Positions 16,571 through 55,956 of a stretch of 64,000 nt of DNA are shown here, piece after piece. Origin of the DNA: Mytilus galloprovincialis. Lineage: Eukaryota; Mollusca; Bivalvia; Mytilida; Mytilidae. The DNA lies in contig NC_134846.1 of assembly GCF_965363235.1 (NCBI RefSeq), positions 33,862,218 to 33,926,217 on the forward strand. The letters run 5' to 3'. Under the pieces are notes generated by a model that worked only from the letters and a program-made list of their open reading frames with translations, searched no databases and was not told the origin of the DNA. The position numbers were made by a program, and so were the translations under genes. How positions within the stretch are numbered: position 1 is the stretch's first letter; each line of letters begins with the position of its first letter.

Positions 16571-17599
<1,029 letters not shown>

Positions 17600-19384: not shown

Positions 19385-19933
19385 TATGACTGCTTTGCAA
19401 ACGCAGAATATGTTTTGTTTAATATTTTTCCCCAACTTAGCAATAGAAGGGGAGATGATTATCTCAAATAATTTACTTTTATAACAGGACGTACATTTTA
19501 AAATTTAGCGTTTCAAGTTTTTTTTCTATGCAAACATTATTTTTTTCTTTATGAAAATCTGACAAATTTGCAAAACCTGTAGTTTGAAAAAAATCTGAGT
19601 GATACAAATTGTTCAGTGAAGGTCGTATGAAGACCTATATAAGCTTAAACTTCATTTTCAATTTGTTGGAAAGATGTCTCAATAGCAATGACAATCATAC
19701 CACATCCCTTTATTTCATGTTGTATTTTATTTTGAAAAGAGCATGTAGGCATAAAAGTCAGAAGATTGGATCACCACAAGAGATCAAATGACGTAGAAGT
19801 TAACAACTATAGGTCACCGTACAGCCATGAGCAGATCCCATACCTTTTAGCAAGATATAAAAGTCCCGAAATGACAAATGTTAAACAATTCAAACGAGAA
19901 AATGAACGATTATGTACAAAACAATAAGAGAAA

Positions 19934-21555
19934 ACAATTTGATATACAACAAACGAAAACCACAGCGAAAACAATTTGATATACAACAAGCGAAAACAAT
20001 TTGATATACAACAAACGAAAACCACAGCGAAAACAATTTGATATACAACAAGCGAAAACAATTTGATATACAACAAACGAAAACCACAGCAAAAACAATT
20101 TGATATACAACAAACGAAAACCACAACGAAAACAATTTGATATACAACAAACGAAAACCACAACGAAAACAATTTGATATACAACAAGCGAAAACCACAG
20201 CGAAAACAATTTGATATACAACAAGCGAAAACAATTTGATATACAACAAGCGAAAACAATTTGATATACAACAAACGAAAACCACAGCGAAAACAATTTG
20301 ATATACAACAAACGAAAACCACAGCGAAAACAATTTGATATACATCAAACGAAAACCACAACGAAAACAATTTGATATACAACAAGCGAAAACCACAGCG
20401 AAAACAATTTGATATACATCAAACGAAAACCACAACGAAAACAATTTGATATACAACAAGCGAAAACCACAGCGAAAACAATTTGATATACAACAAGCGA
20501 AAACAATTTGATATACAACAAACGAAAACCACAGCGAAAACAATTTGATATACAACAAACGAAAACCACAGCGAAAACAATTTGATATACAACAAACGAA
20601 AACCACAACGAAAACAATTTGATATACAACAAGCGAAAACCACAGCGAAAACAATTTGATATACAACAAGCGAAAACAATTTGATATACAACAAACGAAA
20701 ACCACAGCGAAAACAATTTGATATACAACAAACGAAAACAATAACGAAAACAATTTGATATACAACAAACGAAAACCACAACGAAAACAATTTGATATAC
20801 AACAAACGAAAACCATAACGAAAACAATTTGATATACAACAAACGAAAACCACAACGAAAACAATTTGATATACAACAAGCGAAAACCACAGCAAAAACA
20901 ATTTGATATACAACAAGCGAAAACAATTTGATATATCAACAAACGAAAACCACAGCGAAAACAATTTGATATACAACAAACGAAAACCACAGCGAAAACA
21001 ATTTGATATATAACCAACTAAAACCACAACGAAAACAATTTGATATACAACAAGCGAAAACCACAGCGAAAACAATTTGATATGCAACAAACGAAAACTA
21101 TAGTGAAAACAATTTGATATACAATAAAGGAAACCCCCACCGAAAACAATTTGATATTCAACAAACGAAAACCACAGCGAAAACAATTTGATATACAACA
21201 AGCGAAAACAATTTGATATACAACAAACGAAAACCACAGGGAAAACAATTTGATATACAACAAGCGAAAACAATTTAATATACAACAAACGAAAACCACA
21301 GCGAAAACAATTTGATATACAACAAGCGAAAACCACAACGAAAACAATTTGATATACAACAAACGAAAACCATAACGAAAACAATTTGATATACAACAAA
21401 CGAAACCCACAGCGAAAACAATTTGATATACAACAAACGAAAACCACAGCGAAAACAATTTGATATACAACAAACGAAACCCACAGCGAAAACAATTTGA
21501 TATACAACAAACGAAAACCACAGCGAAAACAATTTGATATACAACAAACGAAAAA
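19934..21555. repeat. 37 bp minisatellite with 25 bp short variants
   Basis: The array consists of CGAAAACAATTTGATATACA followed by ACAAACGAAAACCACAG (37 bp), mixed with a short form lacking the CGAAAACCACAG part (about 25 bp); there are roughly 45-50 units. Units differ mainly by A/G in ACAARCGAAA and by CAGCG or CAACG joints. The unit has no stop on the minus strand, and its length is not a multiple of three, so long overlapping frames appear in all three minus frames. These are artefacts, not genes. Duplication copy A has essentially one unit at the matching place (GATATACAGCGACAAACG). Confidence 0.95.
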
Positions 21556-23675
21556 CACAGAATTACAGATTTGTTATCTGCCAGATATGATTGTCCTCAC
21601 TGGAGCACATGAATCCACAGCCGATTTTTGCTGTGTTCGTTTTTTCTCAGTTTTAAGGACTTTTATTCGCCGACAGTGTGTTGTAGACTGCTGTTTTTCT
21701 TTTTGATCATGTCAGATATTCTTGATTTTCGTTGACTTACAGCTTTTTATTGTACCCATGGTAACTTCTGCCTCTTTTAGCAATACAAAATATTTTGTAA
21801 GACAAACTGGAAAATTTTCAAAATCGGAAGTGAGCTCCTTTTTATCTCTCCCAACAACAGTACTAGTATAAAGCTTTGAGGAAATTAGCACACGCATACT
21901 GGAGTGCGCGATGGGAAAAGTTGACGTTAATCGGACGGTATAAGTCATGCACGCTACTCTGGAACGACACAACAGAAAATATCCAAAATGTAATTGAAGC
22001 TTTTCCCAGTCATTGTACTGACTTCATGAGAATTGGGTTTCGGAAATTTGACTTATTGTATGAAGTGAGGACATACGGACGGATGGACTACAGTATAAGG
22101 AACGACTTCAAAAGTTCAATGTAGGATAAAAAACTTAATTCATATAGTTTTTTCACTGACCCCCCTACCCCCTCTTAACTTAATCTGGGAAAAATTGATT
22201 GACCAATAAGGATATATCGATGGGTTATTGCCACAACCAAGTAACATAAAATTTGTTAAATTTGGATTTTGGGTTATTAATGTGTTTTAAAGTCAATGCT
22301 TTAATCGCACCAAATTATAGAGCAAAAGGTATACTAAAGTATTTTTAATTGATAAAACATCAATCAATTATCTATTAATAATTGAATTGTTGGATGCATC
22401 AATCATCTATTTATAGATAAGTTACTTGGTCATTATAGTAAAATATTTTATATATTAAAACAATATACCTAAATCAAATATCTGGAGATAAATTGTTTGG
22501 CAAAACCAAATTTCAAATTATTTTCACAATTTCTTTATGCCTCAACATTGTGAATAAGGTTAACTGTTTGTTGCTGTCATGTTTACAATACTTAAATCTA
22601 TTTTTAGCATGCATCATCCACTGTGTCTAAAGATAACCTGTTGCAGCTTTTAAATATAATCAGCAGATGAAAGGTCAACAAACTAATAAATCCTGATAAT
22701 CTTTTGGGTCATTAAGACTTGTGTAAATATAATGTTGATTCGAGGTTAAAACCAAGTATCTTATTTCGTGTTTTTGTTTCATTTACACTATTACACATCT
22801 TGTAAATACTAATTTTCTCAGGGAAGGAATGCACATTGCTATTGTTAAAAATGATCATCTTTAAACAATCCAAAAGCAGTTATAGGTATGTATGACATTG
22901 TAAATTATATTATGAAAAACATTTATCTAAATATTTTTGATTTTATACTATGATAACAAAATAAGTATTAGCGTTGATGAATAATAATTAATTTTACTCT
23001 GAGAAAGATATTATAATTCAGATTTAATATGGATAATAATTAATTCTGTTAAAATGAATCAAATAAATACACAAAACATGGTCTAACTGCATGTTGCTTG
23101 AACTATTTTTTTTTATGTATAATTAAATGTTTTATGTGTCTCATAGTTCACACTGTTTTATTTATCTATTTTTTCTTCAGATTTTAGTCACAGAAATAAT
23201 AAAGAAAAAAAACAGAGATCATAAAAAAATAGCACCAAGGTAAGATTTTTAAGTATTATATATCTATTTGTTATGTTACATTAGTATTTACAATAGCTCT
23301 AATTTTCAAATTATCTATCGATTCATAAAGATAAATGGTCAATCAAGAAGTATCAATATCAAGCTTATAAAAGACATCTCGATCATGGACAAGAAAAACA
23401 AGAGATAACTAACAGGGAACAACTTTAACAATGAGAGAAACAGAGGACCCTTTAAAATGGGCAAATCATATAGTAAAACAACAAAACTATCAAATTCAAA
23501 GTAGAATTAAAATCGTTATGTCCCTTATCAAACAGCACAATAAAAAGCTTAAACTCATTACACGAATGAAAAACAACTGTCGCATAGGAAATATCAAAAT
23601 TTAAAGACTATAACGTCCAAATGTCATTAACAGAAAATATTTCCGAAGGCTAAACATAGACAATAATTTAAATAC

Positions 23676-26600
23676 ATGTTTTACAGGATGGAATGCACAG
23701 AATGGTCATCCGATGATGAATGGATGAATGCAATTGCAGTAGAAGAAAATAGTCATTCAATTGAAAACACAACTACCGAGAACAACCTGTCAGTGACAGG
23801 AGATAGTCAACGACAGCCAGTCAACACAACGCCTGAAAATATTGGACAAGAGGTTGTTGACACACCACATGAAGATATACAACAAGAATTAAATGACACA
23901 AGGCCCGTACAGAATGAACAAGAGGGCGATGATACACCACATGAAGATATACAACAAAAATTAAATGACACAAGGCCCGTACAGAATGAACAAGAAGGCG
24001 ATGATACACCACATGAAGATATACAACAAGAATTAAATGACACAAGGCCCGTACAGAATGAACAAGAGAGCGGTGATACACCACATGAAGGTATACAACA
24101 AGAATTAAATGACACTAGGCCCGTACAGAATGAACAAGAGGGCGATGATACACCACATGAAGATATACAACAAGAATTAAATGACACAAGGCCCGTATAG
24201 AATGAACAAGAGGGCGATGATACACCACATGAAGATATACAACAAGAATTAAATGACACAAGGCCCGTACAGAATGAACAAGAGAGCGGTGATACACCAC
24301 ATGAAGATATACAACAAGAATTAAATGACACAAGGCCCGTACAGAATGAACAAGAGAGCGGTGATACACCACATGAAGATATACAACAAGAATTAAATGA
24401 CACAAGGCCCGTACAGAATGAGCAAGAGAGCGGTGATACACCACATGAAGATATACAACAAGAATTAAATGACACAAGGCCCGTACAGAATGAACAAGAG
24501 GGCGATGATACACCACATGAAGATATACAACAAGAATTAAATGACACAAGGCCCGTACAGAATGAACAAGAGAGCGGTGATACACCACATGAAGATATAC
24601 AACAAGAATTAAATGACACAAGACCCGTACAGAATGAACAAGAGAGCGGTGATACACCACATGAAGATATACAACCAGAATTAAATGACACAAGGCCCGT
24701 ACAGAATGAACAAGAGAGCGGTGATACACCACATGAAAATATACAACAAGAATTAAATGACACAAAGCCCGTACAGAATGAACAAGAGAGCGGTGATACA
24801 CCACATGAAGATATACAACAAGAATTAAATGACACAACACCTGAAAATATACAACAAGGGGAAATAGTATCCATTGATGAAGAAAGTAGTGACGATAATA
24901 TTCCTCTATCTCGACTGAAACATAGGACAACCTTCGTAGAAGATGAGGATATTGAGTCTATAATAGATAGTGAAGATTCATACAAAGTAACTAAGGCAGA
25001 TATCAACTCATCTGATTCTAACTTATCAGCACCGTCTTCAGAAGGAATTTCAAACACAGACTCTGAATATGAAACCTTGACTCTTCATAAAAGACGGAGA
25101 AAACTTTCGAAAAAAAGAAACACTAAAGAAAACAAGATTAATAGAAAGACAGAAAAAAAATCCAAAGTTGTACAAGTTATTTCAAAAAATAAAACTGCAA
25201 AAACAATCAATGCAGACAGAAGTACAAATGGTAATGTTCAGAACACACCACTTTCCTGTAAAGAAACTTACACAAGTCTCCAGCACCAAACTAATATTTC
25301 AAAAGGTCAGTCAACCAAACAGATGGAAGAGTATAGCATAATACAGTCAATTAAAGAAGTTAGTGCACAGGAGTCAGAATATTTTGAAAAAGAACGAAAT
25401 CAGTGTGAACAAAAACTGGATACATTACTTGCTGCTAATGGTCTTGTCAGGAAGGAAGTATCTCCAGATGGAAATTGCTTTTTTAGGGCATCGCTGCTGC
25501 ACGTGCCGTATGTTAGAGATGAGAATGAATTAAGAGGAATGTTATGTGGACATATTATAGACAACGCTAATGAATATGTTGTTTTTTTTCTCAAATAACG
25601 AAACAAATGAATCATTTGAAGAAGATATGATTTGGATCGATTTTCGCACAGAAGTTGAAGAGCTCAAATGTAGTGGGAAATGGACAAATCGAGCAGCTGA
25701 CCTTTTGCCACTTGCACTTTCTAATTGGAGTAGGAAGCCAATCAAAATCTTCACAAGTCTTTCCCAGAAACCAGTGATAGATATAACACCAACTTTATGT
25801 GAGTCTGACCAATCAAGTTTCATTTTTCTTTCCTACATAACATCAGAAGATCACTCAATTCCATCTCATTATGATGGATGTGTCAAGAATAGTTCACAGG
25901 CAAGCCAGGAGCAGCCATGCAACAAACATGCAGAGAAAGACCAAAATGACGTACAGAATGATGCAATTGAAAATATAACAGACCAACAACCAATTACTCC
26001 TTCAAAGACTAGGAAAAAGGTTGGGCGGCCAAGAGGAACTCCTATACGAAAATCGCATACGTTTATGACACCTCCTAAAAAGAAACTCTATAGAAAAAGA
26101 AAAGCTACTCCAGATGAATGGAAAAAAAACATACGAAAGAAGTTGCGAATGTCTGGGAAAGAATATGTGTCACAAAGAGGAAAGCCTGTACATCAAAAGG
26201 TGGTTAAATCTGTAGATTGCAGCAAGTGTAAATTCAAATGTAGCCAGAAAATTACTGAAGAAAACAGACAGAAAATATTTGATTTATTTTGGTCCCTGGG
26301 ATCGTACGAAAGGAAAAAGGATTTCATCATATCAAGAGTAGAAGAAAAACAAACAAGAAAGTACATCGACCCAAACAATGATATCACACAAAAGAGAAAA
26401 AGAAATATTCATCGATCATATTTCTTTGATATTGGAGGTACGAAGACAGTAGTTTGCAAAATGTACTTTAAGAAAACATTAGATGTTGGCGATGCTTACA
26501 TTGACAATGCCATGCAAAATGAGTCAGGTGGAGTATTTTTTGGCGCTGACAAACGAGGTAAACACACACCCCACAATAAAACCAAATCAGAATATTTACA

Positions 26601-27907
26601 GAAGGTGAGAAGTCATATTGAGTCTTTTCCTGCTGTCGAAGGGCACTACACTAGGAAGTCTTCCAACAGAAGATATCTAGGAGCAGAGTTGAACGTACCC
26701 AGGATGTATCAGCTTTATCTTGATTACTACAAAGAGTCAACTCCACAAAACCAATTAGTTAGTTTAACAATATACAGAAAAACATTCAACGAAGAGTACA
26801 ATTTCTCATTTCATGTTCCCAAAAAGGACCAATGTAATATTTGTGTTACTTATGACAGAGGTATTGCAGATGCATCTATTTCAGAAAACGAAAAGAAGAA
26901 GTATTATGAGCACCAACAGATGAAGATGAGAGCGAGAGAGGAAAAGAAGAAAGACAAAGATAAATCTAAAACAACTAATGATACCTTTGTAGCAACTTTT
27001 GACTTACAGGCTGTATTACAAACACCTTGTTCCTTAGTCAGCCAAATCTACTACATGAGGAAACTGAATTGTTATAATCTGTCAGTTTATAACTTAGGTA
27101 CCAAAAATGCAACTTGCTACTTATGGTCAGAGGTAGAGGGTAAACGTGGAGCCTGTGAAATCACAACCTGTTTATATCTGCAACTGTTGTCTCTCACAGC
27201 CAATATCAAGAATGTAATTCTCTACTCAGATGCATGTGCAGGGCAAAATAGAAATCAGTTTACTGCAACTGGCTTAATGCATGCTGTCATCAATCTTCCA
27301 AACATAGATATAATTGACCACAAGTTCCTAGAAAGCGGACACACCCAGATGGAATGCGACAGCATGCATTCAGCAATCGAGTTTGCGAAGAAAAAAAACT
27401 GAGATTTACATCCCAAGCCAGTGGGCAACAGTTGTCAGGATGGCGAGGAGGACTAATCCGTACTCGGTTGTACCTATACAACATGAGGATATCTACGATT
27501 TCAAAAAGCTCCAAAAGACAACACTTACCTACAGCAAGGTGGATGCCAACGGTGAAAAGGTCAACTGGCTGAAAATCAAATGGCTACGATATTCCAAACA
27601 GGAACCTCAACATATATTATTTAAGCATACATTTGACGAAGACTTCAGAAGATTGAGGATCATCGAGCTTGACAAAAATGGAGTTCCTGTAACAAGTATT
27701 AAAGGACACGAATTGCCAAGAAAATACAAAGGAAAGCAACCAATTACATTGGCAAAGAAGAAGGATCTTCTTAACCTTTGCAAAACCAAGGTTATTCCCG
27801 CTGAGTATCACAAATTTTACAAAGATCTTCCTGCCAATGGAGAGGTTCCTGATAATCTACCGGACCCGGATGTAGAGGAAGAAGAACAGGACTCAGAACA
27901 AGAGTGA
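23676..27907 (+). pseudogene. OTU protease-transposase fusion protein of the 6.5 kb element
   Basis: In order: an N-terminus (the ATG at 23,688 directly follows a good acceptor TTTTACAG, with a possible donor AAG/GTAAGA at 23,239); an acidic 24-residue repeat tract (23,860-24,840); Lys-rich linkers; an OTU domain with DGNCFFRA (Cys codon 25,476) and HYDGC (His codon 25,867); a CSKCKFKC zinc motif; and an RNase-H-like transposase core with FDLQAVLQTP (Asp 27,001), YSDACAGQNRN (Asp 27,229) and GHTQMECDSMH (Asp 27,358). A C-terminal acidic tail follows. One TAG interrupts a repeat unit (24,198). Two single-base homopolymer gains shift the frame: a T-run near 25,580 and an A-run near 27,395. All three could be real decay or assembly error, since the rest is well kept. 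The core resembles a widespread animal transposase family; 'Sola-like' is only a guess. Confidence 0.8.
23860..24840 (+). repeat. 72 bp (24-residue) in-frame coding repeat, about 13.5 units
   Basis: Each unit encodes DDTPHEDIQQELNDTRPV plus QNEQEG, with alternation between EGDD and ESGD. Units are almost identical at the DNA level, showing recent expansion or homogenisation. The period is a multiple of three, so length changes keep the frame. The antisense 416-residue frame is a shadow. Confidence 0.95.
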
Positions 27908-29407
27908 TAGATTGCATATATGCTTCAAGCTTTAACATTTTAAAAATTCTGATCAATATAGTCAATTCAGTAATTCTTACAAAAATATCTTACAAATTTA
28001 CATATTGTTTAACGATATTTCTATCAATATATCAATAATGATGTTTGTTTCAATTCATTAATTGATTATCTTATATTGGATATTGCGTTGTGGTCTTTAT
28101 TTTTAAGATAAAATAATGATAAATTTTAATTGCCAACATAAGTTATTTCTTTATAACAGGTTATGGCATATTTTGTAAAAAATAAACAAATTTATTTGTA
28201 ATGCCAAAAAAACATAATGCCTGTTATTGTATTCTGTCATACAAATTACTGTTTGATAAGATAAATTTTGATATGTCAAAAACAATTATCTTCTGTTAAA
28301 TGATTAAGGCACTACTACCAGCATTTTTTTCATATTTAACGTAACAGCCAAAAGGTCATAATGGTACTTACCGTGTTATGGTACTATCATACCATATTTT
28401 TAAACATGGATATTTGATTGCATCAATACTGTATCACCCGTAACTTGGTTTTGGCAATTGTGTTTTCAATGTTATACTATGTTTTATTATGTCTCAAACA
28501 ATTTGAAGCAATAAATCAATTGTCTTACTTATTTTGTTCTTATGTATTTGATAATTTGTTAGCAAACATTGAAACTGAAATACAAAATCATTTATTTACA
28601 TGTAATAACTTTTAAAGTACCCATAAAACTTAAAAACATGCCGTCTGAAAAATGCTATATTTTCAGTTATTTGGTTGTGGCATTAACCCAACGATATATA
28701 TATAAAATCGATGTCAATTAAACAAATCTTGCAGCAAGTTTGACCCCCCCCCCCCCACAACTATTTGAATCGTGATCATTTAATTCAAAATTTATATAAT
28801 TTGCTAAAATGGTATTTCGACGACAAACATTGGTTTTTTTTACTCCACCACTTCGACTTGTCTTTCAATATTTTTAACATGTTAAGGGATAGGGGCAATT
28901 TTACCCCAATGTTCGTTTACACAGTTAGATGAAGTTACATTTGTGCGGTTTGCAGATTGTAATATTCTCTTTGGCTACTGATTAATTTTTCAACCCTCGT
29001 CGTCCTATTTATTCATTAAAAATTTTGCCTAGGAAAATTTTTGCCTAGGAAGTTCAGCTCATGATGCTTTACATATCAAGTTTTCTATCGTGTTCTCACA
29101 GTTAATTATCTCTCGACTCCCCTCCCCAAAATGCAGTCTTTATATTTTGATTGTTTGTTAACACGATTAGAAAAAAACGTCCCTCCAATAACTGCAAACC
29201 ACCGTCTAGTGAATTTCTAATAATTCGAACTTCTGGAACACATAAAATTAAAAAAAAACGATGTCACACATCAAACATTTTGTTTTATCATTCATTCGAA
29301 TTTTTACAATTACATAATATATATTTAATTCCATTAACAGTTCTGTTGTGATTTAATATCGGTCATATATACATGTACTTTCATTTAGCTTCTATCCTTA
29401 TAACAGC

Positions 29408-30469
<1,062 letters not shown>

Positions 30470-37870: not shown

Positions 37871-42589
<4,719 letters not shown>

Positions 42590-46234: not shown

Positions 46235-48257
46235 TTAAAAGCATTTTCTATGTACAATACTTTTACCGCATTCCACATATTCCCTTTTACCAATCCACAT
46301 GTCCTCAAATGTGGACAAAGATGCTAAAATAGATCCCCCAATCCATACCGAATATTTTCTCTCTGATGGAGCAATGACATTTACAGCCATGTTTTGAGGG
46401 GCTAAATGTCCAATGTCTGATTTAAGTCTCCCTGACATCCCGTCATAGAGTGTCGTTCCCCCAGATAATACTATATTGGAGAAGAGGTCTTTCCGAACAT
46501 CAACGTCACACTTTACAATTGAATTATACACAGATTCGTGAATTCCGAATGCCTCCATTCCTATAAAAGATGGTTGGAAAAGGCACTCGGTTGCACGGAA
46601 TCTTTCGTTGCCAACGGATATGACTTCCCCGTCTGGTAGTTCGTAATGCGTCTCTAAATCCGTGGTTGTAACGGACCGAAGCATGTCCGCGTCATAATCT
46701 TCTGTAACAAAGCATAATTTTTCCTTGATGTCTCTAACAATTTCTCTTTCGGCCGAAGTTGTAAAGGAATAACCTCTTTCCGTTAAAATTTTGAGGAGGT
46801 AGTCGGTAATATCTCTTCCTGCTAAATCAAGTCTAAGCGTCGCGTGAGGTAGTGCGTATCCTTCATATATCGGTACAGCGTGCGTTACTCCATCACCAGA
46901 ATCCAGTACTATCCCCGTTGTGCGCCCTGAGGAATACAATGAAAGCACGGCCTGGATAGCAACATAGCTTGCAGGAACACTAAAGGTTTCAAATAAAATT
47001 TCCATCATTTTTTCTCGGTTTACTTTCGGACTGAGAGGTGCTTCCGTCATCAAAACAGGGTGTTCATCCGGATATACACGGAGCTCGTGATAAAATGTAT
47101 GGTTCCATATTTTTTCCATGTCGTCCCAGTTCGTCACTATTCCATGCTCTATTGGATATGTTAAAGAAAGAACACCACGGTAGGTTTGAGCCTCGTCTCC
47201 GACATAATAGTCTCGAATGTTCGCTCCTATCATTATTCCCTGAAAAATAACGCAAATTAAAGTTTTCACTATAGGAATTGGGCGATTGTTGTAATATAGC
47301 ATCTTTTAAAGTATATATATGATAAGGAAAACCTTTCTTCATAACCTTAATAAATTCGATTTGAAAAAATGTTTTGGTTATGATATTACAAATAAGTTCT
47401 TCTGCGGACTTTAGTTGTCAATAATTACAGTACTTGTATTTTTGATTATAATACGTTATTTTGATTGACTTACATCAATCTTTCGTCATTCTGAAAGAAA
47501 CCTTCATTTCATAATGAAATGTTCATATTCATGATATCGAGCTTCCACAATAAGGTACACAGGTATATAAATATTAGAAAAAAATGAAAGAAATCGCGGG
47601 TTTTCGTGGTTTTTACAACAACAAAATCACGGTACGTGCGCACATTTTAGAATGAAGCGCGCTCGCGCTATATACAAAATGTAATTCAGTCAACGCTTTT
47701 ACAATTCAATAAATAAAGAAAAAGAAGAATTCAATTATTAAATGAATAAAATTATGAAACTAGCAGTCATGATTTTAGGAACTTGAATAAAAACGTTTGC
47801 TTATAAATATTATTTAGTATTTTTAGCTAGAGGGACAAATTGTGTATATTAAAAAAACTAAGGTTTCAACTCCCTCAAGCAAAGCTGACTTTAGGTGAAT
47901 TTGGCTATTTATTTTACGTATTTTTTGTCATATAGCTCTTCAACGGTTTCGGTACTTATACATCCTTGGATTTCAAATGTTTGACTTTGAGCGTTCCTGA
48001 TGGAGGTACATTCATAAAAGCGCTTCGTTCGCATGAAATTATTAAACGTGTTGTTTTCAATTTTTTATAACGGTAGATTTTTACATATCTCAGAACTAAT
48101 TAGATTTAGAGAGTTTAATATTTAATGAATGACAAACCTGATGTTTCGGCCTTCCAACAATTGACGGAAAAACGGTGGTGGGGGCATCATCACCTCCATA
48201 GCCAGCTTTACACATACCCGACCCATTGTCTATAACCAGTGATGCTATATCATCCAT
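46235..48257 (-). CDS. Divergent actin, complete two-exon gene (copy D)
   Basis: Exon 1 at 48,138-48,257 (40 codons, [20 protein letters not shown]) and exon 2 at 46,235-47,239 (334 codons plus TAA) give 374 residues. The intron (898 bp) is at the same phase 0 site as in copy C. The nucleotide loops ([18 protein letters not shown]), His73 region (PIEHG), [10 protein letters not shown] and SIVHRKCF are intact. The protein departs widely elsewhere: APTTVF for APRAVF, D-loop [44 protein letters not shown] in subdomain 4, and [14 protein letters not shown] near the C-terminus. It is still an actin rather than a named actin-related protein. It is probably a molluscan orphan actin with a specialised tissue or filament role; expression cannot be judged. 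Confidence 0.9.
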
Positions 48258-54397: not shown

Positions 54398-55956
54398 GTG
54401 AGCTTTTCTCATCACTTGGCGTCCGTCGTCCGTCGTCGTCGTTAACTTTTTACATTTTGAACTTTTTCTAGAGAACCACTGAATGGAATGAAACCAAACA
54501 TGGCATGAACGTTCCTTATGAGGTGCTGACCAAGTGTTGTTACTTTGTAGACGATCCATCATCTAAGATGGCCGCCAGCGGGGGACTTAGTTTAACATAG
54601 GACCCTATGGGAAATATATACAAATGTCTTCTTTTAGAGAACCACTGAATGGAATGAAACCAAACATGGCATGAATGTTCCTTATGAGGTGCTGACCAAG
54701 TGTTGTTACTTTGTAGCCGATCCATCATCCAAGATGGCCGCCAGCGGGGGACTTAGTTTAACATAGGACCCAAGGGAAATATATACAAATGTCTTCTTTT
54801 AGAGAACCACTGAATGGAATGAAACCAAACATGGCATGAATGTTCCTTATGAGGTGCTGACCAAGTGTTGTTACTTTGTAGCCGATCAATCATCCAAGAT
54901 GGCCGCCAGCGGGGGACTTAGTTTAACATAGGACCCAAGGGAAATATATACAAATGTCTTCTTTTAGAGAACCACTGAATGGAATGAAACCAAACATGGC
55001 ATGAATGTTCCTTATGAGGTGCTGACCAAGTGTTGTTACTTTGTAGCCGATCCATCATCCAAGATGTCCGCCAGCAGGGGGCTTAGTTTAACATAGGACC
55101 CTATGGGAAATATATACAAATGTCTTCTTTTAGAGAACCACTGAATGGAATGAAACCAAACATGGCATGAATGTTACTTATGAGGTGCTGACCAAGTGTT
55201 GTTACTTTGTAGCCGATCCAACATCCAAGATGGCCACCAGCAGGGGGACTTAGTTTAACATAGGACCCTACAGGAAATACATACAAATGTCTTCTTTTAG
55301 TGAACCACTGAATGGAATGAAACCAAACATAGCATGAATGTTCCTAATGAGATACTGACCAAGTGCTGTTACTTTGTCGCCATTCCAATGTCAAAGATGG
55401 CCGCCAGTGGGGGACTTAGTTTAACATAGGACCCTATGGGAAATACATACAAGTTTCTTCTTATAGAGAACCACTGAATGGAATGAAACCAAACATAGCA
55501 TAAATGTTCCTTATGAGATGCTGACCAATTGTTGTTACTTTGTAGCTGATCCATCATCCAAGATGGCCACCAGGGTGACTTAGTTTAACATAGGACCCTA
55601 TGGGAAATACATACAATTGTCTTCTTTTAGTGAACCACTGAATGGAATGAAACCAAACATAGCATGAATGTTCCTAATGAGATGCTGACCAAGTGTTGTT
55701 ACTTTGTTGTCATTGCAACATCCAAGATGGCCGCCAGTGGGGGGACTTAGTTTAACATAGGACCCTATGGGAAATGCATACAAAAGTCTTCTTCTAAAGA
55801 ACCACTGAATTGAATGAAATCAAACATAGCATGAATGTTCCTTTCCTTATGAGGTGCTGGCCAAGTGTTGTTACTTTTAGCCAAATTTTATATTTTTTTT
55901 ATATGATTTCAAAAACCCAAGTAGAATCAGGTGAGCGATACAGGCTCTTGAGAGCC
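54398..55956 (-). repeat. Family R-c copy 3 holding a 166 bp tandem array, about nine units
   Basis: The outer ends match family R-c in reverse (GAGCTTTTCTCATCACTTGG.. and AGGTGAGCGATACAGGCTCT). From about 54,470 to 55,870 a unit of about 166 bp is repeated about nine times: GAACCACTGAATGGAATGAA, ACCAAGTGTTGTTACTTTGT, ATCCAAGATGGCCGCCAG, TTTAACATAGGACCC. The first units are almost identical and the last few more diverged, so the array is growing or homogenising from one side. Antisense frames of about 62 residues recur once per unit and are artefacts. Confidence 0.9.

Follow-up and report, generated by a model that had tools for sequence, protein, structure and literature searches.

OTU domains are already known in mobile elements, both joined to a DDE (Asp-Asp-Glu) transposase in Ginger1 and in Helitrons, according to the parts of the literature available to us. 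The accessible portion of the Ginger1 study describes DNA transposons with terminal inverted repeats, found in animals including the mollusc Aplysia, that encode a Gypsy-type integrase with OTU or Ulp1 at the C-terminus, in one case together with PHD, and that have TGTNR ends and a 4-bp CCGG/CCGT target duplication (PMC2836005). OTU is present in some Helitrons, and VTD-carrying Helitrons are described in the same text, as far as it is available (PMC9741609). The part of a 2025 paper accessible to us mentions a Zisupton isoform with an F-box and states that there is no evidence for F-box domain capture by transposons (PMC12062965), and fungal TET/JBP genes are described, in the available part of another study, as moving between DNA transposon superfamilies (PMC12730594). 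PMC4455052, partly accessible, gives the 2015 list of Repbase superfamilies. Here we describe a 6,478-bp element in a 64,000-nucleotide stretch of the genome of the mussel Mytilus galloprovincialis (hereafter the window, C9:33862218-33926217). Its gene joins an OTU-like domain to a transposase core of the DUF7869 type (Pfam PF25273), and we are nearly certain of the element, of the OTU–transposase fusion and of the standing place of OTU in one lineage of these elements. The genome searched is of 1.38 Gb, and the matches fall on the large contigs C1–C14 and a few small ones; a flanking repeat resembles one known from Mytilus.

The mussel element resembles Ginger1, in the accessible description of the latter, in being a DNA transposon with terminal inverted repeats and an OTU domain in the transposase protein. 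It differs in its core, which is of the DUF7869 type and not a Gypsy-type integrase, in the position of OTU, which is N-terminal to the transposase in the relatives L035 and L010 but C-terminal in Ginger1, and in its TCG ends and TA/ATAT target duplications (2 bp in a sister lineage). No integrase model was found in the Pfam results for the window pieces and L035 (E ≤ 1) or for ten aligned transposases (E ≤ 0.1). With Helitrons, as partly described, the mussel element shares a deubiquitinase-class domain in the protein of a mobile element, but Helitrons have a rolling-circle RepHel protein and no DDE transposase. As with the Zisupton isoform, an F-box is tied to a transposon in sister elements, although here the F-box/leucine-rich repeat protein is encoded in a separate upstream open reading frame (ORF) inside the inverted ends; no KDZ/Zisupton model was among our Pfam results. 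The likeness to the fungal TET/JBP genes, as far as that account is available, lies in the swapping of an accessory gene between transposon lineages, whereas the accessory, the hosts and the superfamilies differ. Our literature search found no paper that covers OTU, F-box, transposable elements, DNA transposon, transposase and ubiquitin all at once, and none that mentions DUF7869; Repbase and subscription papers were outside this search, so a name there is possible. The original prediction suggested that the OTU–transposase combination might be undescribed; novelty in that general sense is not supported, in view of Ginger1 and Helitrons. What is new is the different transposase family, the N-terminal OTU and the presence of OTU, F-box and PHD modules in one slot.

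The fusion is seen most directly in relatives of the window element. A genome search with the 610-amino-acid transposase frame of the window gave at least 76 matches (72 of 88 candidates scored). The copy at C1:131473055-131480477 (L035) has a frame that stays open for 1,688 codons, 1,672 counted from the Met of the conserved N-terminus, and that contains a tandem repeat with a 15-residue unit, an OTU domain with GDGNC and EHYDGC, and the transposase. OTU followed by transposase, in the same order, is found at C11:3.03, C5:73.3, C2:44.15 and C8:58.15 Mb, in interrupted frames, and the type represented at C9:41.5 Mb (L010) has a 1,067-codon frame with OTU and transposase and without tandem repeats. 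The repeat unit is 24 residues long in the window, 15 in the C1 copy and about 14 in the C8 copy (L038), and is missing in L010; the N-terminal repeats thus differ between lineages that share the neighbouring domains. The linker between OTU and transposase is variable. Whether other copies carry OTU beside the transposase had been set beforehand as a test of the prediction, and they do.

The window copy holds the remains of one long gene (23688-27907, + strand) that runs from MECTEWSSDDEW... to a stop at 27905-27907 through three frames, in the same order as the uninterrupted frame of L035. Its start at 23688 is followed by a coding tandem repeat (23858-24837, 13.6 copies of a 72-bp unit encoding 24 residues), the OTU-like domain (25377-25893), the transposase in the 610-amino-acid frame (26113-27402) and the C-terminal part of the transposase in a third frame (27383-27907), all on the + strand. 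The gene is broken by one stop, TAG at 24198-24200 within the repeat, and by two frame changes, near the T run at 25582-25589 and at the A run at 27391-27398. Both frame changes are close to homopolymer runs, and sequencing error at these runs may be their source. The first of them splits the OTU domain, so that DGNC (Cys codon 25476-25478) and HYDGC (His codon 25867-25869) both occur in the window in two different frames. The transposase motifs FDLQ, SDACAGQN and GHTQMECDSMHSAIE are also present, along with Cys motifs, two Asp codons (27001-27003 and 27229-27231) and a Glu codon (27379-27381). The OTU and transposase signatures on which the prediction was built are therefore real, and a single gene with OTU and transposase does exist in L035, but the version in the window is broken. 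The window copy is probably a decayed cut-and-paste DNA transposon.

The element spans 22217-28694 on the + strand, with ends TCG...CGA, 36-nt terminal inverted repeats (22217-22252, + strand, and 28659-28694, - strand) and a TA on either side (22215-22216, in ATAT context, and 28695-28696) as the two copies of the target duplication. Inverted ends of about 34 bp had been predicted at 22212-28699; the inverted ends are confirmed, with 36 of 41 bases matching between 22212-22252 and 28659-28699, whereas the two 200-bp end regions, when mononucleotide-shuffled 40 times, gave at best 26 matching bases over 41 nt. When other copies are compared, each end shifts 5 bp inward, to TCG at 22217 and CGA at 28694, with TA outside, which sets the repeat length at 36 nt. 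A 241-bp query from the 5′ end matches a single other place in the genome, C11:31263639 (95% over 238 bp); this match extends at 93.4% over 2,515 aligned columns and ends within the tandem repeat. For the 3′ end, the genome contains no further match.

Mobility is evident from the target duplications and from an empty site. The end pattern of the OTU lineage has 44 matches in the genome, compared with one for the reversed-pattern control, and 16 of these form eight pairs by end type, orientation and distance. ATAT, and hence TA, flanks both sides in all eight pairs; the window and C8 pairs come from an inverted-repeat search without flank bias, whereas the count is biased for the other six, because they were found with a pattern that itself began with WTA (up to 2 mismatches). 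Duplications of 2 bp (TA) and 4 bp (ATAT) are indistinguishable in this lineage because the ends are palindromic. Eleven of the 44 matches are ATATCGAAGGGTTATTGCTACT; the five of these that were fetched all share flanks, and the whole end type was therefore excluded as part of the interior of another repeat. That leaves 17 unpaired or variant ends, among them one at C10:13.48 Mb with ATTTCG in place of ATATCG and no partner within the next 3.9 kb. Four of the eight pairs (C5:34.18, C5:58.43, C5:77.48 and C9:87.13 Mb) delimit copies of about 3.4 kb, and those at C5:58.43 and C9:87.13 Mb still contain a segment that matches window-frame residues 538-609. The C1 element is inserted in a dispersed repeat, of which 40 of 40 scored places (277 candidates) continue uninterrupted across the insertion site, with a single ATAT. 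The predicted DNA transposon thus has inverted ends, target duplications and, for the C1 insertion, an empty site, and the genome-wide search for further copies yielded consistent target duplications in both the OTU lineage and the F-box lineage described below. The copy at C5:58433468-58436903 is inserted in that dispersed repeat exactly where the C1 element is, with the opposite orientation.

In an alignment of ten transposases, every row has D478, D554 and E604 as well as Cys 217, 220, 224, 422 and 425 (numbered as in the window frame). All ten match DUF7869 at E ≤ 0.1; L010, L015 and L019 score above the cut-off of the model, and L035, L023 and the window score below it. The Pfam name gives no function. 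DUF7869 is the only model matched by more than one of the ten, the other match being a weak one to TraY in a single row (E ≤ 0.1). No Pfam model for KDZ/Zisupton, CACTA, MULE, hAT, Tc1 or Harbinger transposases matched any of the ten rows at this threshold, and a distant kinship or a Repbase name is possible. The order of the motifs is consistent with an RNase H-like DDE core, and the protein is very probably a DDE transposase. A DUF7869 search of the genome gave at least 150 matches (150 of 300 candidates scored), as expected of a mobile family, although this is not a copy number because many matches are exon-like pieces. Between the C1 and C11 transposases, few changes are seen, with non-synonymous (dN) and synonymous (dS) divergence of 0.004 and 0.03, respectively. 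None of 46 pattern-matching stretches in viral contigs encodes a relative of the transposase. One of 43 stretches in a prokaryote genome collection encodes a 32% identical transposase fragment (L091, 2-367) on a contig binned as Gemmataceae; the fragment is probably a contaminant of eukaryotic origin or part of a chimera.

Sister lineages with the same transposase showed no OTU in the stretches read. Upstream of the transposase and on the same strand, L014, L015, L019, L021, L023 and L026 have an ORF of about 250 residues with an F-box and leucine-rich repeats, which is in pieces in L014, L021 and L026. The F-box-like model matches at E = 5.7e-9 (L015), 1.8e-7 (L019), 6.6e-9 (L023) and 9e-8 (L026); the F-box of L014 and L021 was assigned solely by match to the L019 protein. 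L024 has no F-box ORF in the stretch examined. At C7:52906662-52911732, the F-box/leucine-rich repeat and transposase genes both lie inside the inverted ends TCGTCGTGTG... The end pattern of this lineage, which contained no flanking base, has 25 matches in the genome and none for the reversed-pattern control; 12 matches form six pairs, and all six have an exact 2-bp target duplication (AT, TT, AG, GC, AA and CC). Flanks were read for 3 of the 13 unpaired ends. A further F-box/leucine-rich repeat ORF of 236 residues, with matches to both models, lies in L092 (C6:41666400-41669000, ORF 975-1682, - strand), whose 2.6 kb holds no transposase ORF. The F-box search gave 16 places where a 236-residue frame is 24-25% identical to the query, L092 being one of them, and in 15 of the 16 the frame has no internal stop; ORFs of this type possibly come from a further mobile family in which the F-box gene stays intact.

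In a third group, L016, L017, L018, L020 and L022, a separate upstream ORF encodes a PHD-like finger. Pfam PHD matches L017 at E = 2e-6 and L022 weakly (E = 0.089), and the L022 ORF matches the L017 protein at 2.2e-14 in a small local set. These copies amount to about two independent lines, because L016, L017, L018 and L020 are near-copies. Element ends were not found for the PHD lineage, in which the three copies compared share flanks. In an unrooted tree of 15 transposases, in which some rows are near-copies, the OTU (7 rows, support 93/98), F-box (5 rows, 100/100) and PHD (3 rows, 100/100) groups each form one side of a branch.

For the OTU domain, Pfam gives 30.1 bits in L010 (E = 7.6e-7), above the curated cut-off of 23.3 bits. 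The window pieces have no Pfam OTU match, and the assignment in the window therefore rests on the relatives L010 and L035; the proposed profile search thus bore out OTU in relatives and DUF7869 in the transposases. NCBIfam gave two irrelevant weak matches for the three window pieces, far below cut-offs. Compared with solved structures, the L035 domain matches A20/TNFAIP3 at E = 0.21, aligned over GDGNC, which is suggestive only, and the L010 domain gave nothing relevant. Searching the genome for OTU turned up 18 matches among 31 candidates, distributed over 16 places. The C1 and C5 domains differ by few changes (dN 0.007, dS 0.05 over 183 codons). In all six distant pairs, the proportion of non-synonymous differences (pN, 0.31-0.49) is far below that of synonymous differences (pS, 0.73-0.84), without a ratio because dS is saturated in five of the six; for the window, this analysis used the second half of the domain. 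The substitution pattern indicates that the OTU domain is under purifying selection. Because it is in addition common to deep branches of the lineage, OTU is not a one-off capture.

We favour, with moderate confidence, an explanation in which a decayed transposon carries an OTU domain directed at host ubiquitin in a slot that is exchangeable between lineages. A D-D-E transposase of the DUF7869 type would act on the TCG ends and duplicate a short target, 2 bp where this is unambiguous, in the sister lineage. One polypeptide would combine acidic N-terminal repeats, an OTU deubiquitinase-like domain and the transposase, and the OTU domain would most likely deubiquitinate either the transposase complex or chromatin proteins close by, which would protect the transposase from degradation or open up the site. 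The F-box/leucine-rich repeat protein of the sister elements is a likely ubiquitin-ligase adaptor. Judging from their domains, OTU and F-box probably both act on the host ubiquitin system, stabilizing the transposase or removing restraints.

Several observations weigh against this explanation. The profile search found no solved relative of the transposase, giving two chance-level matches to phage proteins (E = 1.4 and 2.1), and a single-sequence AlphaFold model of the 610-amino-acid frame is unusable (mean predicted local distance difference test score 36.7); the case for a DDE fold is consequently built on the order of the motifs and on the element ends. The OTU branch in the tree falls below the star of the tool and carries a long-branch warning. 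In the uninterrupted L035 frame, Pfam OTU covers the full profile at 16.7 bits (E = 0.011), which is below the cut-off. The Asp of DGNC is lost in L010 and L012 (AVGNCFF), and the Cys motif is unreadable in the transposase frame of the C2 and C8 copies, so OTU activity would not be universal. These losses, and the faster evolution of OTU than of the transposase between the window and C1 (pN 0.31 vs 0.20), would fit a domain that never was or no longer is an active enzyme here and serves as a binding module or neutral baggage. This is unlikely, as the C1, C5 and C11 copies and L010 retain the Cys and His, which the window also has, split over two frames, and as the low pN in all six pairs speaks against it. 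In intact copies, the OTU domain may well be an active deubiquitinase.

Less probable still is a processing role, raised in the original prediction, in which OTU would be the protease that releases the transposase from a polyprotein. A single frame with a variable linker between OTU and transposase would suit it, but elements of the F-box lineage already encode the accessory protein in a separate ORF, its stop overlapping the transposase start (ATGA) in L019 and L021, or lying close to it, with the start 5 nt (L023) or 67 nt (L015) downstream of the first stop-codon base. In that lineage, the transposase as a rule has a free start of its own and nothing needs cutting, and we found no evidence for processing. 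Known OTU domains generally act on ubiquitin, and the countering of host ubiquitin control, also raised in that prediction, would fit better than processing. Capture of OTU by chance in the window copy only can be dismissed, since OTU precedes the transposase in the C1, C5, C11, C2, C8 and C9:41.5-Mb copies.

The surroundings of the window element contain other repeats and genes. A minisatellite (19930-21560, 47 copies of a 37-bp unit) lies just 5′ of the element, and a tandem repeat with a 166-bp unit (8.5 copies) is found at 54462-55882. Four consecutive - strand ORFs of 332-355 residues (16571-17569, 29408-30442, 37871-38869 and 46235-47302) are, we presume, actin-like, and the transposon is placed between the first and second of them.

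The upstream slot looks like an exchangeable host-interaction module, because sister elements carry F-box/leucine-rich repeat or PHD proteins there. Tentatively, and with less confidence than in the explanation itself, we suggest that DUF7869 elements could form an undescribed superfamily of cut-and-paste transposons with TCG ends and 2-bp duplications in the lineages read. The slot before the transposase would there have been occupied successively by a fused deubiquitinase (OTU), a separately encoded ubiquitin-ligase adaptor (F-box/leucine-rich repeat, its stop overlapping the transposase start in two copies) and a separately encoded chromatin reader (PHD), as alternative tools in the same host conflict. 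Uncharacterized until now, DUF7869 can thereby be identified as a likely transposase core. An F-box gene lying between the inverted ends of a transposon is the kind of case for which evidence was lacking according to the accessible part of PMC12062965. The presence of OTU, an F-box adaptor or PHD on related transposases amounts to a natural experiment, which asks whether a deubiquitinase and a ligase adaptor may serve the same end.

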